Assembly (NCBI RefSeq): GCF_016907455.1
Contig: NZ_JAFBCB010000001.1
Location: 1,054,001-1,118,000, forward strand
From: Brachybacterium muris
GTDB lineage: Bacteria > Actinomycetota > Actinomycetes > Actinomycetales > Dermabacteraceae
DNA: 64,000 bases
Direction: 5' to 3'
This document shows, one piece after another, positions 47,702-55,072 of this stretch. How positions within the stretch are numbered: the stretch's first letter is position 1; every line of letters begins with the position of its first letter. The notes below the pieces were generated by a model, which was given only the letters and a program-made list of their open reading frames with translations, was not told where the DNA came from and ran no database searches. The position numbers were made by a program, and so were the translations under genes.

Positions 47702-49264
47702 ATGGTACGGAAGATCAGGGCGAAGCTGGTGCTCCAGCTGCGCGCAGAAGGTCTGTCGGGGCGAGCGATTTCGTCCTCGCAGGGCATGTCCCGCAAGTCC
47801 GTGAGGGCGGTGTTCGAGGCCGCTGACGCTGCAGGGATCGGGTGGGGCGATATCGCGGACGTCGCCGATGAGCAGGTGTATGCCCGGTTGTTCCCGGGCC
47901 GGGGCGAGCACGAGAGCGTGTTCGCACAGCCGGACTGGGAACAGGTCCATCGAGAGATGGCCAGGGTCGGCGTGACGCTGAAGCTGTTGCACGGCGAGTA
48001 CTTCGACGCGACCACGGCGGCTGGGGATCCGGCGATGGGGTATGACCGGTTTTGCCGCACCTACCAGCACCACGTCATGGTCACCGGTGCCGCTTCGAGA
48101 GTCGGTCACAAGGCCGGCCAGAGCGTGGAGGTCGACTGGTCCGGCCCCACGATGGAGCTGGCCGATCCGGTCACCGGCGAGGTCTCGAAGGTGTTCTTGT
48201 TCGTTGCCTGCCTGCCTTTTTCTCGTTACGCGTTCTGCTTCCCGGCGCTGGATATGCGCCAGGAGTCCTGGCTGCGAGCGCACGTAGCGATGTTCGAGGC
48301 GCTGGGCGGGACGGTCCCGAGGATCGTTCCGGACAACCTCAAGACCGGTGTGGTGAAGCACCCCCGCGAGGGCGAGATCGTCCTGAACGATGCGTATCGC
48401 GAGATGGCAGCGCATTACTCGGCGGCGGTGCTCCCGGGGAGGGTGCGGAAACCGAAAGACAAGGCGAGCGTGGAGAACACCGTCGCGCACGTCGCGACCT
48501 GGGTCATCGCCGGGCTGCGGGATCAGCGATTCACGTCCCTGCCCGAACTTGCAGCCGCCATCGGGCAGCGGATGGAGGCCTATAACGCGGAGCCGTTCCA
48601 GAAGCGGCCCGGATCCCGCGCCAGCGTGTTCGACGCGGAGGAGCGGCCGCTGCTGACGCCGCTGCCGGCGGTGCCCTACGAGATCTCGACATGGCACTAC
48701 GGACGACGAGTGGGCAGGAACGGGCACGTCACGTTCGCGCGGAACTTCTACTCCGCGCCGTTCGCGCACATCGGCGCGAAGGTCGATCTGCGCATCACGG
48801 CCCGGACGCTGGAGATCTATCAGGGCAGCCAGCGACTGACCAGTCACCTGCTGCTCCCGGAGACCGCGAGCAATGAGTACCGCACCAACGACGCGGACCT
48901 ACCTGCGGGCGAGCGTTTCCAGGCCTGGGACGCGCAGAGGGTGCGGGCGTGGGCAGATCGGGTCGGGCCGGCCACGGTGATCGTGATCCAGCGGATCTTC
49001 GAGTCCGTGCCGATCGTGGAACAGGGCCTGGATCCCGCGTTGGCGGTGCTACGGCTCTCTCGCCGCTTCTCCGTAGATCGGGTCGAGGCGGCCTGCGCAC
49101 TCGCGCTGACGGGACGGGTCCGTTCACCGCGCTATGCGCATCTGCACCCGATCTTGGCCACCGGGCAGGACAAGGTCGCCGCCCTGCGTCCACCCCGCGA
49201 GGAACCCGCGGAAGACGGCGGATACGTCCGTGGCGCCGACTACTACGCCGGAGGTGTCCGGTGA
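47702..49264 (+). CDS. istA: IS21-family transposase IstA (copy 2)
   Basis: 520 residues, same protein as copy 1, with DDE residues Asp145, Asp211 and Glu258 intact. The ribosome-site-masking hairpin is present at 47654-47692. Presumably functional. Confidence 0.96.
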   Translation: MVRKIRAKLVLQLRAEGLSGRAISSSQGMSRKSVRAVFEAADAAGIGWGDIADVADEQVYARLFPGRGEHESVFAQPDWEQVHREMARVGVTLKLLHGEYFDATTAAGDPAMGYDRFCRTYQHHVMVTGAASRVGHKAGQSVEVDWSGPTMELADPVTGEVSKVFLFVACLPFSRYAFCFPALDMRQESWLRAHVAMFEALGGTVPRIVPDNLKTGVVKHPREGEIVLNDAYREMAAHYSAAVLPGRVRKPKDKASVENTVAHVATWVIAGLRDQRFTSLPELAAAIGQRMEAYNAEPFQKRPGSRASVFDAEERPLLTPLPAVPYEISTWHYGRRVGRNGHVTFARNFYSAPFAHIGAKVDLRITARTLEIYQGSQRLTSHLLLPETASNEYRTNDADLPAGERFQAWDAQRVRAWADRVGPATVIVIQRIFESVPIVEQGLDPALAVLRLSRRFSVDRVEAACALALTGRVRSPRYAHLHPILATGQDKVAALRPPREEPAEDGGYVRGADYYAGGVR

Positions 49265-50007
49265 GCGTGATCGATAACGACACGAAGCGGAAGCTGCGCG
49301 AGATGGGCGCGACCGCGCTGCTGGACGCGATCGATGCCCAGGATGAGGCTCACGTGCTGGGGATGTCGTTCCAGGAACGGCTCCAGCTGATCGTGGACGA
49401 GGCGCATTCCATCTTCAATCATGGAAAGGTCGAGGGTCTGATCCGCCGGGCGGGGCTGCGTTATCCCGGAGCGGACCTGCGGCGGCTGGATCTGGTCGAG
49501 GAACGGGGACTGAACCGGAACGTGATCGCGCAACTGGCAACCTGCTCCTTCATCCAGCGGCAACAGAACGTGGTCTTCCAGGGCTTCACCGGCTCAGGGA
49601 AGTCCTACCTCGGCTGCGCGCTGGCGAAGCAGGCCTGCCAGCACCGGCTCCGAGCCCACTACATCCGAATGCCCGACCTCGAAGAGGCCTGGGCCCTGGC
49701 AAAGGACAAGCCGCAGGGCCAGACGAAGTTCCTGCGGAAGTACTCCACGTTCTCGCTGCTGGTGATCGACGAGTGGCTGCTGGACCATCCTGACGAGGGA
49801 ATGCGTTCGATGCTGCTGGAACTGCTCGAGCGCCGCTATGACACCGGCTCGACCGTGTTCTGCACCCAGTACCCGAAGAAGGACTGGCACGCCCGGCTCG
49901 GTGGAGCAGTCCACGCCGATGCGATCATGGACCGCATCGTGCACAACACAATCTGGATCGACACCGGCGACAGGAACATGCGAGAACACACCGCACTGCC
50001 CCAGTGA
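49261..50007 (+). CDS. istB: IS21-family helper ATPase IstB (copy 2)
   Basis: 248 residues, same as copy 1, with Walker A GFTGSGKS and the GTGA coupling to istA preserved. Confidence 0.95.
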   Translation: MSVIDNDTKRKLREMGATALLDAIDAQDEAHVLGMSFQERLQLIVDEAHSIFNHGKVEGLIRRAGLRYPGADLRRLDLVEERGLNRNVIAQLATCSFIQRQQNVVFQGFTGSGKSYLGCALAKQACQHRLRAHYIRMPDLEEAWALAKDKPQGQTKFLRKYSTFSLLVIDEWLLDHPDEGMRSMLLELLERRYDTGSTVFCTQYPKKDWHARLGGAVHADAIMDRIVHNTIWIDTGDRNMREHTALPQ

Positions 50008-50924: not shown

Positions 50925-53894
50925 TCACACCACGATGTTGACCACCTTCGGTGCGCGCACGATCACCTTGCGCACCGTCTGCCCGTCGATCAGCTGCTGC
51001 ACGCGCGGCTCGGCCATCACCAGGGCCTCCAGGTCCGCCTCGGAGATCTCCGGGTCCACCTCCACCTTGTGGCGCACCTTGCCCTTGATCTGGACCACGC
51101 AGGTGACGGCGTCCGCCTTCACCAGCTGCGGATCGGCCACCGGGTAGGACTCCCGGGCCAGGGACTGCTCGTGCCCCAGCCTCGACCACAGCTCCTCGGC
51201 GATGTGCGGCGCGAAGGGCGCCACCATCAGCACCAGCGGCTCCAGGGCCTCACGGGGCGAGGACCCGGTGCCGGCCAAGGCCTTGGTCAGGTGGTTCACC
51301 AGTTCGATCAGCTTGGAGATGGCGGTGTTGAACTGCATCTCGGCCATGTCGCGGGTGACCCCGTCGATGGTGCGGTGCACAGCCTGCTTGGTGGGCAGCG
51401 GCGCCTCGTCCTCGGAGACCAGCAGCGCGCCGGTCTCCTCGTCGACCACCAGTCGCCACAGGCGCTGCAGGAACCGCTGGGATCCCACCACCGCGCGGGT
51501 CTCCCAGGGGCGCGACAGGTCCAGCGGACCCATCGACATCTCGTACACACGCAGGGTGTCCGCCCCGTACTCGGCATACATGTCGTCCGGGGCCACCGAG
51601 TTCTTCAGCGACTTGCCCATCTTCCCGTACTCCTGGGTGACGGGCTCACCGTGGTAGGTGAAGGTGCCGTCGGCCTCCGCCACGACCTCCTCCGCCGGGA
51701 CGTACACGCCGCGCGCGTCCGTGTAGGCGTAGGCCTGGATGTATCCCTGGTTGAACAGGCGGTGGAACGGCTCCTGGCTGGAGACGTCGCCGCGGTCGAA
51801 CAGCACCTTGTGCCAGAACCGGGCGTACAGCAGGTGCAGCACTGCGTGCTCCACACCGCCCACGTACAGGTCCACGCCGCCCACGCCGCCCGGAGTGCGC
51901 GGGCCCAGCCAGTACTGCTCGTTGACCGGGTCCACCAGCTGCTCGGTGTCGGTGGGATCGATGTAGCGCAGCTCGTACCAGCTGGAGCCGGCCCAGTTGG
52001 GCATGGTGTTGGTCTCGCGGCGGTAGCGGCGCGGCCCCTCACCCAGGTCCAGCTCCACCTCCACCCAGTCCTCGGCCCGCGACAGCGGGGTCTGCGGCTC
52101 GGTGTCGGCATCGAGGGGATCGAAGGTGCGCGGGGAGAAGTCGGTGACCTCCGGCAGCTCGATCGGCAGCATCTGCGTGGGCAGGGCGATCGGCACCTCC
52201 GGCTGTTCCACGTCGTACACGATCGGGAACGGCTCGCCCCAGTAGCGCTGACGGGAGAACAGCCAGTCCCGCAGCCGGTACGTGGTGCGGGCGGTGCCGA
52301 AGCCCTTCTCGGTCACGTACTCGGTGGCGCGGGTCTTCGCCTCGTCCTTGTCCATGCCGTTGAGGTCCAGCTCGGCGTTGGCGGAGTTGATCTTCACCCC
52401 GTCGCCGGTCCAGGCGCCGCCGGGGAAGTCCTCGGGCGGCTGCACGGTGCGGATCACGGGCAGCTCGTAGGCGGTGGCGAAGTCGAAGTCGCGCTCGTCC
52501 TCCGCGGGGACCGCCATGATCGCGCCGGTGCCGTAACCCATCAGCACGTAGTCGGCGGTGAACACCGGCAGCTCCCGGCCGTCCATCGGGTTGATCGCGG
52601 TCAGGCCGGTGAACACACCGGTCTTGGCGCGGTCCTCCCCGGTGCGCTCCTCCTCACCGGTGGCAGCGGCCCGCGCCTGGTAGGCGGCGACCGCTTCGCG
52701 CGGCGAGGCGGCACCGTCGGTCCAGCTGGCCGGCACGTCCGACGGCCAGTCGGCGGGCAGGGCGTCCACGTCCGCCAGCAGCGGGTGCTCCGGGGAGAGC
52801 ACGCAGAAGGTGGCGCCGAACAGGGTGTCGGCGCGAGTGGTGAACACCTCGAAGGTGGGGGAGGCGCCTTCGACCGGATCGGGGGTGCCGTTCGGATCGG
52901 GGGTGCCGGCCAGCCCCTGCACGGGGAAGGCGATCTGCGCGCCGTGGCTGCGGCCGATCCAGTTGCGCTGCATGGAGCGCACCGACTCCGGCCAGTCCAT
53001 CCGGTCCAGGTCGTCGATCAGACGGTCCGCGTAGGCGGTGATGCGCATGTTCCACTGGCGCAGGCGGCGCTTGAACACCGGGAAGTTGCCGCGCTCCGAG
53101 CGGCCCTCGGCGGTGACCTCCTCGTTGGCCAGCACGGTGCCCAGTCCCGGGCACCAGTTCACCGAGGTGTCGGAGACATAGGCCAGGCGGAACGCGCCCA
53201 CCAGCTCCTCCAGCTCCGCGTCGTCGGCTGCGCGCACCTCGTCCGCGGAGCGCCCGGCCCAACCCGCAGGCAGCTCGATGTTCAGCCGATCGGCCAGCGC
53301 GATCGGGTCGATGGCGCCGGAGTGCAGGCCATCCCGCAGCTCGGAGACAGGGCGAGCACGGCCCACGATCCCGTCGGCGTTCTCGGCGTCCGGGTCGTAC
53401 CAGGAGTCGAAGATCCGCAGGAAGATCCACTGCGTCCACTTCATGAACTCCGGGTCCGTGGTGGCGAAGGAGCGGCGCGGGTCATGGGACAGGCCCAGGC
53501 GGTGCAGCTGCCGGCCCATGGTCGCCACGTTCTCCTCGGTGGTGATCCGGGGGTGCGTGCCGGTGGCGATGGCGTACTGCTCCGCGGGCAGGCCGAAGGC
53601 GTCGTACCCCATCGTGTACAGCACGTTCCTGCCCAGCATGCGGTGGTGGCGGGCCACCACGTCGGTGGCGATGTACCCCAGGGGGTGCCCCACGTGCAGT
53701 CCCTTGCCCGAGGGGTAGGGGAACATGTCCATGATGAAGGTCTTCTCCGGCAGATCCGCCGGCGGGGTGCCGTCCGAGAGCGGGCCGGTGGGGTTCACGG
53801 CGGCGAAGGTGCCCTCCGCGTCCCAGCGCTGCTGCCAGTGCTGCTCGATGCTGTCCGCCATGGCGGCGGTGTAGCGGTGCGGTGCCTCGGTCAT
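50925..53894 (-). CDS. leuS: leucine--tRNA ligase
   Basis: A 989-residue class I synthetase charging tRNA-Leu. The HIGH motif is [17 protein letters not shown], the CP1 editing domain lies in the middle ([17 protein letters not shown] and the [15 protein letters not shown] region with the conserved editing Asp), and KMSKS is present as [12 protein letters not shown], a form common in actinobacteria. It ends with an anticodon-binding and C-terminal domain ([11 protein letters not shown]). The start at 53894 (MTEAPHRY) follows GAAGGACG; the longer frame passes through the leader and terminator and is rejected. A leader-peptide attenuator lies upstream. Confidence 0.97.
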
Positions 53895-53953
53895 GGTGAT
53901 GCGTCCGTCCTTCAGCAAGTGGTCGACTCCTCCACCGGGATGCTCCCGGCATG

Positions 53954-54020
53954 AAAAAACCCCCGCACAGGCGAGGGGAGCCGCGTCGATGCCCGGGGAC
54001 CGGGCTCTGCTCGACGCGGC
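53954..54020 (-). promoter_or_regulatory. leuS transcription attenuator (terminator and competing hairpins)
   Basis: Reading minus, GCCGCGTCGA and TCGACGCGGC (54020-54011 and 53989-53980) form a 10-bp stem with an inner GCCCGG/CCGGGC stem. The terminator CCCTCGC-CTGT-GCGGGGG is followed by six U. An antiterminator pairs CGAG-CA-GAGCC (54013-54003) with GGCTC-CC-CTCG (53982-53972). It uses bases of both the first stem and the terminator's 5' arm, so it excludes them. Confidence 0.8.
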
Positions 54021-54046
54021 TACGGAAGGAGCAGCCGGATGTCCAT
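54020..54046 (-). CDS. leuS leader peptide MDIRLLLP
   Basis: Nine codons on minus: ATG GAC ATC CGG CTG CTC CTT CCG, then TAG. Three consecutive Leu codons, one of them CTT, which is rare in such GC-rich genes. A TACACT -10 box ends 6 nt before the ATG, so the leader peptide is the very 5' end of the leuS mRNA and is translated without a Shine-Dalgarno. The first attenuator stem starts at the stop codon. A ribosome stalled at the Leu codons for lack of charged tRNA-Leu would cover that stem's 5' arm and favour the antiterminator; a ribosome that finishes would let the terminator form. Confidence 0.75.
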
Positions 54047-54052
54047 GCGCCC

Positions 54053-54058
54053 AGTGTA
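54053..54058 (-). promoter_or_regulatory. -10 box of the leuS leader transcript
   Basis: TACACT on minus, 6 nt before the leader-peptide ATG at 54046. Confidence 0.55.
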
Positions 54059-54145
54059 CGCGCGGATGCGGGCGGGCCGCCGACCGGCCCGCCCGCGGGC
54101 ACTCAGCCGATCGCGTTGGCGCTGGAGCCGGCAGCGGGCGCGGGT

Positions 54146-55072
54146 TCACGCGCCCAGCACACCTGCCAAGACCAGCAGCACCACCACGGTGCCGATCGTG
54201 GTCACCAGCACCGTGTCACGCGCCAGGTTCTCGGAGGCCTCGTAGCGGGCGGCGGCCACGTACACGTTCTGCGCGGTGGGCAGTGCGGCCATCACCACCA
54301 CCGCGTACAGATCCTGCCCCCGCAGGCCCAGCGCGGCGCCGATCCCCAGGGCGATCAGCGGCATCACCACGAGCTTGGTCGCCGAGGACACCGCGATCAG
54401 GCCCCGGTAGCCGTCGTCCCGGGCGAAGGGCCGAGAGCCGTACAGCGACAGCCCGTAGGCCAGCAGCATCGCCGGGATCGCCATGTCGGCCAGGGAGCGC
54501 ACCGGCTCGAGCATCACCTCGGGGATCCGCACCCCAGCCGCCGACAGCACCAGACCCACCGCCGAGGCGATGATCGTGGGGTTGGCCAGGATGCTGCGGG
54601 CCACGCCCGCCGGGCCGGGACTGCGCTCCTGCGTCAGCGCGTGCAGCACGAACAGGTACAGCGGGGTGTACACCGCCTGCTGGAACAGGATCACCGGGAT
54701 CGCATGGGAGATGTCCCCCAGCACGTAGGCGGCGATGGGGAACCCCATGTTCGCGCCGTTGACCACGGAGCCGCTGATCGCCGCGACCACCAGGTCCACG
54801 CCGCGGCGTGATGTCGCCACCCGCAGCACCCCCAGCAGCAGCCCACCAGTGAGCAGGCCGGCGAGCGCGGCCACCAGCATCGGGGTGGACAGCACCTCGC
54901 CCGGTTCGGACTGCAGCAGCCCCACCAGGACCAGGGCCGGTGAGGCGAGGAAGAACGTGGTGCGGTTCAGCACATAGCGGGCATGAGGGCCCAGCACTCC
55001 GGTGCGGGCGGTGAGCCAGCCCACCCCGATCAGGGCCCAGACGATGAAGAAGCCGCTGAGGACCCCGGACAT
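54146..55072 (-). CDS. AEC-family transporter (auxin efflux carrier-like)
   Basis: A 308-residue membrane protein with about ten transmembrane segments in two five-helix halves. [20 protein letters not shown] at the start and the N-terminal [19 protein letters not shown] match the AEC/BASS-like carriers. [20 protein letters not shown] and [20 protein letters not shown] are the unwound crossing helices. Bacterial members export or import malate, amino acids or other small carboxylates; the substrate is not predictable. Its stop is about 90 bp before the leuS leader promoter. Confidence 0.9.

Follow-up and report, generated by a model that had tools for sequence, protein, structure and literature searches.

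A probable leucine leader-peptide attenuator before leuS in Brachybacterium muris, compared with its relatives among the Actinomycetes

Classical attenuators before leuS, the gene for leucyl-transfer RNA (tRNA) synthetase, were predicted in 2005 in Streptomyces avermitilis and Streptomyces coelicolor (PMC1262725, in its account of these genes). The part of a 2021 transcriptome study with mapped transcription starts that deals with the leader peptide LeuL2 of Streptomyces lividans, MRAVRLLLSEPR, reports it as transcribed leaderless, with a hairpin and a U stretch behind it (PMC8079986). Here we describe the region ahead of leuS in Brachybacterium muris, within a 64,000-nucleotide (nt) stretch of contig NZ_JAFBCB010000001.1 (positions 1,054,001 to 1,118,000, hereafter the window). 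A leucine attenuator before leuS is real and deeply conserved, and we consider it highly probable that it regulates leuS by ribosome-mediated transcription attenuation in response to charged tRNA-Leu, making it the Brachybacterium counterpart of Streptomyces leuL2-leuS. A sequence-only reading had called such an arrangement unusual. Since leuS attenuators (PMC1262725) and the leaderless LeuL2 (PMC8079986) both stand in the relevant parts of the Streptomyces literature, it is an example of a known switch. Its interest lies in the absence of an overlapping antiterminator and in two fixed distances.

The elements of the locus are these:
54053..54058, minus strand: -10-like hexamer TACACT (TAnnnT), 6 nt ahead of the leader start codon
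54020..54046, minus strand: leader peptide MDIRLLLP, probably leaderless, reading ATG GAC ATC CGG CTG CTC CTT CCG TAG
54046-54044, minus strand: leader start codon ATG
54034-54026, minus strand: three consecutive regulatory Leu codons, CTG CTC CTT
54022-54020, minus strand: leader stop codon TAG
54021-53979, minus strand: hairpin 1 as a whole, 11 base pairs (bp) plus an inner 6 bp
54011..54021, minus strand: hairpin 1 5' arm, AGCCGCGTCGA (folding and covariation)
53991..54005, minus strand: inner 6-bp helix GCCCGG/CCGGGC, inside the hairpin 1 loop (folding)
53979..53989, minus strand: hairpin 1 3' arm, TCGACGCGGCT (folding and covariation)
53960..53977, minus strand: intrinsic terminator stem-loop CCCTCGC-CTGT-GCGGGGG with a 7-bp stem (folding, terminator scan and covariation)
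53954..53959, minus strand: terminator U-tract TTTTTT
50925..53894, minus strand: leuS, leucyl-tRNA synthetase (LeuS), 989 amino acids (TIGR00396 leuS_bact, E value 2.7e-259)

The sequence-only reading had laid out TACACT, 6 nt, the ATG of MDIRLLLP, CTG CTC CTT and a stop, and all are present on the minus strand; so is its terminator with six U before leuS (stem-loop 53977-53960, TTTTTT 53959-53954). The hairpin it gave as 10+6 bp also exists, with an outer helix of 11 bp rather than 10. A single unpaired C separates hairpin 1 from the terminator stem-loop. The leader, 94 nt long, has a folding energy of -46.1 kcal/mol (z -2.73, with 3 of 200 shuffles equally good), and a terminator scan of the region gave one terminator-like site against 0.0 +/- 0.2 in shuffles. 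The leuS ATG at 53894 is preceded by an AAGGA stretch.

The resemblance to LeuL2-leuS of S. lividans TK24, as far as PMC8079986 describes that locus, is close. In both cases a Leu-rich peptide, leaderless in S. lividans and probably so in the window, lies upstream of leuS, and a hairpin and a U stretch come after it. The window has an open reading frame (ORF) with Leu codons immediately upstream of leuS, homologous sequence and structure, and a hairpin with a U-tract terminator. The peptide is 8 amino acids long in the window, compared to 12 for LeuL2; the stop codon lies at the base of hairpin 1 rather than within its 5' arm, and the start in the window is a predicted one. The S. coelicolor and S. 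avermitilis candidates share the leader ORF with Leu codons, the hairpin, the terminator and leuS; one of their hairpins is named an antiterminator in the description given in PMC1262725, by which alone they were compared with the window. The ilvBNC leader of Corynebacterium glutamicum, in the account of it in PMC11857589, is a branched-chain leader on a leaderless messenger RNA (mRNA), as the window leader probably is, and its antiterminator ends where its terminator begins. However, its hairpins share three bases and a third hairpin is present there, whereas no paired base is shared here. The LEU element that precedes leuA has a Leu-rich leader and a GC-rich hairpin in common with the window, and one such element occurs in the B. 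muris genome; it differs in a proposed pseudoknot with the leuA Shine-Dalgarno sequence and in having no terminator, in the part of PMC1262725 that presents it. The window leader precedes leuS and has a terminator, which rules it out as a LEU element. As in trp-type attenuation, a leader ORF that contains regulatory codons lies ahead of an intrinsic terminator, but the drawn pairing, ribosome masking (which removes the terminator in a minority of sequences) and the 0-3-nt gap between the hairpins gave no general antiterminator that shares paired bases with the terminator.

The attenuator would work as follows. Transcription would start at or beside the A of the leader ATG, so the ribosome would initiate without a Shine-Dalgarno site. 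With ample Leu-tRNA, the ribosome would complete MDIRLLLP, cover the hairpin 1 5' arm while at the stop codon, and then leave, upon which the terminator would fold and transcription would end ahead of leuS. When Leu-tRNA is scarce, the ribosome would wait on CTG CTC CTT with its front edge about at the base of hairpin 1. Hairpin 1 could then form, and the polymerase would read through into leuS. We infer the leucine response and the direction of the switch, the sign being assumed from the needs of a synthetase gene. Least certain is how hairpin 1 would lead to read-through. Because hairpin 1 and the terminator share no paired bases, we propose a steric block by the waiting ribosome: hairpin 1 would pull that ribosome against the 5' side of the terminator, preventing it from folding.

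The search for relatives covered 58 genomes including that of B. muris, with 35 from the same genus and 22 from other families. We read 34 of the 35 same-genus relatives (G001 was left out, as its leuS lies at a contig end) and the 14 other-family genomes with a high-scoring LeuS match; the remaining eight carry the second LeuS type. In the window and all 34 same-genus relatives read, a short leader ORF starting with ATG or GTG carries three Leu codons in a row at the same place, and GCCGC...GCGGC of hairpin 1 is kept downstream of the leader. Of the 34 relatives, 33 also retain a terminator hairpin and its T-rich tail. By a first crude rule, the leader was also found in 5 of the 14 other-family genomes. 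Peptide length varies, with MDIRLLLP encoded in the window and in L007 and 21 amino acids in many relatives where CAG replaces TAG, and the loop of hairpin 1 differs widely in both sequence and length. Being conserved among relatives, the leader arrangement is not due to chance.

Hairpin 1 and the terminator both covary. In alignment A1 (39 sequences, L048 left out), they are paired in 95.9% of 699 cells, with two-sided changes at 7 pairs, compared to 3.9 in shuffles, and in 23 cells, compared to 6.0. For 49 distinct sequences from several genera, aligned by fitting to a covariance model and thus leaning toward the structure, the hairpins are paired in 91.5% of 858 cells, with 11 two-sided pairs against 8.1 and 114 such cells against 39.4 in shuffles, a level that none of 500 shuffles reached. 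The persistence of Leu codons and stems in relatives had been named beforehand as a check on the attenuator; run here, it found the codons and stems kept and covariation in both hairpins.

The predicted start is consistent with what is known of leaderless genes. The pattern TACACT-N6-ATG occurs five times in the genome, every time on the contig's minus strand, and the reversed-pattern control gives no occurrence. TAnnnT-6 nt-RTG is present in the window and 33 of the 34 same-genus relatives read; L018 has TAGGAT at 7 nt. The 6-nt spacing from TAnnnT to a purine start codon agrees with the leaderless rule published in PMC8079986, where the passage stating the rule gives a -10 spacer of 4-9 nt with a mean of 6.3. 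We predict, with high probability, that the leuS mRNA begins at the leader ATG.

Known from Streptomyces, the leuS attenuator reaches across much of the class, with some 90 comparable examples. A covariance model, R1, was built from the 39 sequences, none of which encodes MRAVRLLLSEPR. Under strict filters that lose weak matches, R1 matched 57 of the 149 genomes of the order at an E value of 0.1 and 103 of the 296 genomes of the class at 0.01. The order search listed 63 matches, of which 50 were read, along with two more that are both leuA leaders; 11 weak matches (E 0.006-0.09) were left out. LeuS adjoins the match in 48 of these 50 loci. The two others are L120, where the match by eye sits within another coding sequence, and L124, where it precedes a leuA-like frame. 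From the class search we read the 25 best matches not already held, plus seven more (five ilvB-type and two leuS), and LeuS adjoins the match in all 25. Five of these 25 leaders encode exactly MRAVRLLLSEPR upstream of leuS (best E 1.3e-11 per genome).

R1 was also run on the best 80 of 125 named loci at E 0.01, and matched 22 of them: all 20 Brachybacterium records, one Actinomycetales metagenome-assembled genome (MAG) and one Dermabacter MAG. At that threshold, it gave no match in the other 58 of the best 80, which are mostly Actinomycetaceae; Dermabacter hominis, Helcobacillus and two Dermabacteraceae are among the named loci with no match. The pooled set came to 98 sequences after L148 failed the leader finder. 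Because 36 of the 98 are from Brachybacterium and the others were picked by the model or the leader filter, the counts are not independent and describe found leaders rather than all leuS genes.

The same leader type precedes two divergent forms of the enzyme. The 73 LeuS-bearing loci (of 75) split cleanly into two LeuS lineages: 49 are nearer the window LeuS (56-100% identity over the matched stretch) and 24, comprising L083, L113, L126 and 21 others, are nearer the L083 LeuS (62-100%), with an identity of 31-52% across the two. The tested part of the L083 LeuS gives one continuous alignment to whole bacterial leucyl-tRNA synthetase chains; for the window LeuS, the best stretch against the top 15 such chains starts at residue 237 or 238. 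The closest named record to the window LeuS is that of B. epidermidis, with 97% identity over the first 145 residues tested. Since one leader type stands before both lineages, the leader may have been inherited or moved as a control cassette, separately from the history of the enzyme.

The model also reaches other branched-chain leaders. Second R1 matches in five genomes have, by eye, the leader MRTRILVLG(K/Q)RV(G/D), and four of the five are identical to the Streptomyces ilvB leader IlvL, MRTRILVLGKRVG, as printed in the relevant part of PMC8079986. Unlike the leuS leader, IlvL has Ile, Val and Leu codons and precedes ilvB in that account. An ilvB-like protein was seen by eye downstream in four of the five loci; in the fifth, the script chose another frame. 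As in the leuS leader, the hairpin of the ilvB leaders is directly followed by a CCCCTCG...TTTTTT terminator, and the Streptomyces-type ilvB leaders L151-L155 show this hairpin-then-terminator layout with the TCCCCTCG terminator arm found in the leuS leader. The shared layout and TCCCCTCG arm may reflect a common origin of the ilvB and leuS leaders. Leaders of leuA are weak matches: one in the B. muris genome (E 0.026) and three elsewhere. B. muris has seven R1 matches, of which the leuS and leuA leaders were read, the other five lying at E 1.3-2.6. Its leuA leader, MHGTLLLLRRAEA (L161, contig 1:1781017-1781117, minus strand), has TACGGT 6 nt upstream and a GC-rich hairpin, and no U-tract terminator was seen there.

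To relate the hairpins to the position of a ribosome, all pairs up to 11 nt past the first A-site base, the extent of the ribosome footprint, were forbidden in 92 distinct sequences. Left out of this set were L010, which has no terminator by the rule, two duplicates, and L019, L083 and L113, which the helix rule mis-called (gaps by eye of 1, 0 and 0). In a first masking run on 40 sequences, the rule assigned no terminator to three and a wrong one to L021, L041 and L048. A ribosome whose A site holds the first Leu codon covers the first 24 or 27 nt, and hairpin 1 then forms at a probability (P) above 0.5 in 91 of 92 sequences. With the stop codon in the A site, it forms in 0 of 88, as four could not be placed. 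In this folding model, hairpin 1 reports, by geometry, a ribosome that waits early on the Leu codons.

Two distances are nearly constant across these leaders. The last Leu codon lies 5 nt from hairpin 1 in 87 of 92 sequences, and hairpin 1 lies 0-3 nt from the terminator in 95 of 97; the remaining two were called wrongly. The gap finder allowed a range from a 3-nt overlap to a 4-nt gap, with hairpin 1 anchored on GCC/ACC/CCG at nt 25-34. Plain minimum free energy folds, which have no preset range, gave a gap of 0-2 nt in 78 of 78 scored sequences, with hairpin 1 starting at nt 26-30; these comprise 36 of 39 and 42 of 57 distinct sequences, the other 18 of the 96 having no exterior stem with a T-rich tail. 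The loop between the arms of hairpin 1 ranges from 6 to 108 nt.

Several observations weigh against this account of a leucine-sensing attenuator. L010 keeps the leader and hairpin 1, with its terminator replaced by a long GC hairpin that has no U-tract, and the T-rich tail is interrupted in L016 and L021. In the alignment of 39 sequences, the number of pair types (13) does not rise above shuffles, 151 of 500 of which reach it. A two-hexamer promoter scan of the leader region found nothing, with no -35 box, so the promoter call comes from the -10-like box by itself. When the last Leu codon occupies the A site and the stem base is covered, the mean pairing of hairpin 1 has a median of 0.32. The loss of hairpin 1 at the stop codon is a product of the mask itself, which covers the 5' arm. 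In 19 of 92 sequences, the stop codon is 37 nt into the hairpin, within its loop; a ribosome there is already beyond the 5' arm, so the stop-codon step fits less well. The terminator falls below P 0.5 in 4 of 92 sequences with no ribosome, 0 of 92 on the first Leu codon, 3 of 92 on the last and 5 of 88 on the stop. Until the 3' arm is made, its 5' arm is if anything less paired while the ribosome stalls. Since the terminator is predicted to fold in every state and its 5' arm is not hidden upon stalling, base pairing alone would produce either no switching or switching of the wrong sign. Ribosome masking thus revealed no thermodynamic switch as a general feature, and a minority of relatives could have one.

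How could an attenuator act with hairpins that share no bases? A tentative answer, the one we favor for this last step and regard as possible rather than probable, is a two-hairpin attenuator with no overlapping antiterminator, in which hairpin 1 serves as a bridge that places the stalled ribosome next to the polymerase. Only on the Leu codons would the front edge of the ribosome, the base of hairpin 1 and the 5' side of the terminator lie within a few nt of one another. A bridge that tolerates any loop length would account for the fixed 5-nt and 0-3-nt distances beside a loop of 6-108 nt. In E. coli pyrBI, a ribosome close behind the polymerase prevents the terminator from folding with no antiterminator involved. 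In contrast to the bridge, pyrBI is not known to use a hairpin to draw the ribosome close. If the bridge is correct, leuS and ilvB leaders throughout the Actinomycetota may share it.

A simpler explanation, and on balance an unlikely one, needs no ribosome at the base: hairpin 1 alone would abut the terminator and collide with the RNA exit channel of the polymerase. The gap itself, at 0-3 nt in 95 of 97 sequences and 0-2 nt in all 78 that could be scored among 96, is what this explanation would require, and the freedom of hairpin 1 does depend on where the ribosome is. It would however predict read-through of a wholly untranslated leader, and while it accounts for the gap, it explains the fixed 5-nt distance from the Leu codons only as a need to keep hairpin 1 uncovered. 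The bridge reading takes in both distances.

The classical three-part attenuator, which we consider improbable, holds that stalling lets a separate antiterminator pair part of hairpin 1 with the 5' arm of the terminator. The sequence-only reading proposed just this, as CGAG-CA-GAGCC with GGCTC-CC-CTCG. The pairing can be drawn in the window, but relatives do not conserve it in this form: of its nine pairs, two occur in just 5 of 39 and 4 of 38 sequences, there is a single two-sided cell change, and all 500 shuffles reach its covariation score. It is paired in 72.9% of 343 cells, which exceeds the 38-47% of slid versions and is no better than shuffles. The other seven pairs reuse bases of hairpin 1, the conserved loop GCC and the terminator arm. 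As these bases are conserved anyway by hairpin 1 and the terminator, a weaker version may be conceivable in most relatives. In favor of a third partner, covering 31-40 nt drops the terminator below P 0.5 in L013, L014, L016, L019 and L037, and partly in L008 and L030. The Corynebacterium ilvBNC antiterminator shares three boundary bases with its terminator in the description in PMC11857589. Nevertheless, masking leaves the terminator intact in most sequences, and loops of 6 nt give little room for a third partner. An antiterminator sharing paired bases with the terminator was not found as a general feature of the leaders compared. The claim of a full stall-antitermination logic thus survives in part, with a leucine leader-peptide attenuator for leuS supported and the drawn antiterminator not. 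The comparison speaks against a textbook overlapping antiterminator being the general rule in these leaders and, in the bridge, offers an alternative that can be tested.

Two other pairings were considered and set aside. Leader CGGCT with the 5' arm AGCCG, a 1:2 pairing, is paired in 87.7% of 195 cells with zero two-sided changes and was not used. The 3' arm of hairpin 1 against the terminator loop (CGCGGC with GCC-U-GCG) was drawn by eye only and is absent in L012 and L033.

It is very unlikely that the switch has the opposite sign, with hairpin 1 shielding the terminator arm from mispairing so that a stalled ribosome raises termination. The folding does lean this way: the 5' arm of the terminator has a median unpaired probability of 0.925 with the ribosome just before hairpin 1 and 0.645 with the 5' arm of hairpin 1 covered, and it is freer by more than 0.3 upon stalling in 41 of 92 sequences, with the reverse in 0 of 92. 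But leuS would then shut off at low Leu-tRNA, contrary to known synthetase attenuators. Control by a T-box or another described RNA family can hardly be credited, as T-boxes, although common for synthetase genes in Firmicutes according to the passage on them in PMC1262725, are absent from the six Rfam 15 matches up to E 5 in 53800-54200, every one of which is below its gathering score.

The surroundings of the locus hold a few further features. A GC-rich inverted repeat, GCGGGCGGGCC/GGCCCGCCCGC, with no U-tract lies at 54068-54096 on the minus strand, between the upstream gene and the leader, and is possibly the terminator of that gene (54146-55072). The gene itself has a weak match to the auxin efflux carrier family, below that family's cut-off. 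Near the end of leuS, at 47702-50007 on the plus strand, two adjacent frames resemble, by eye, an IS21-type transposase and its helper ATPase.

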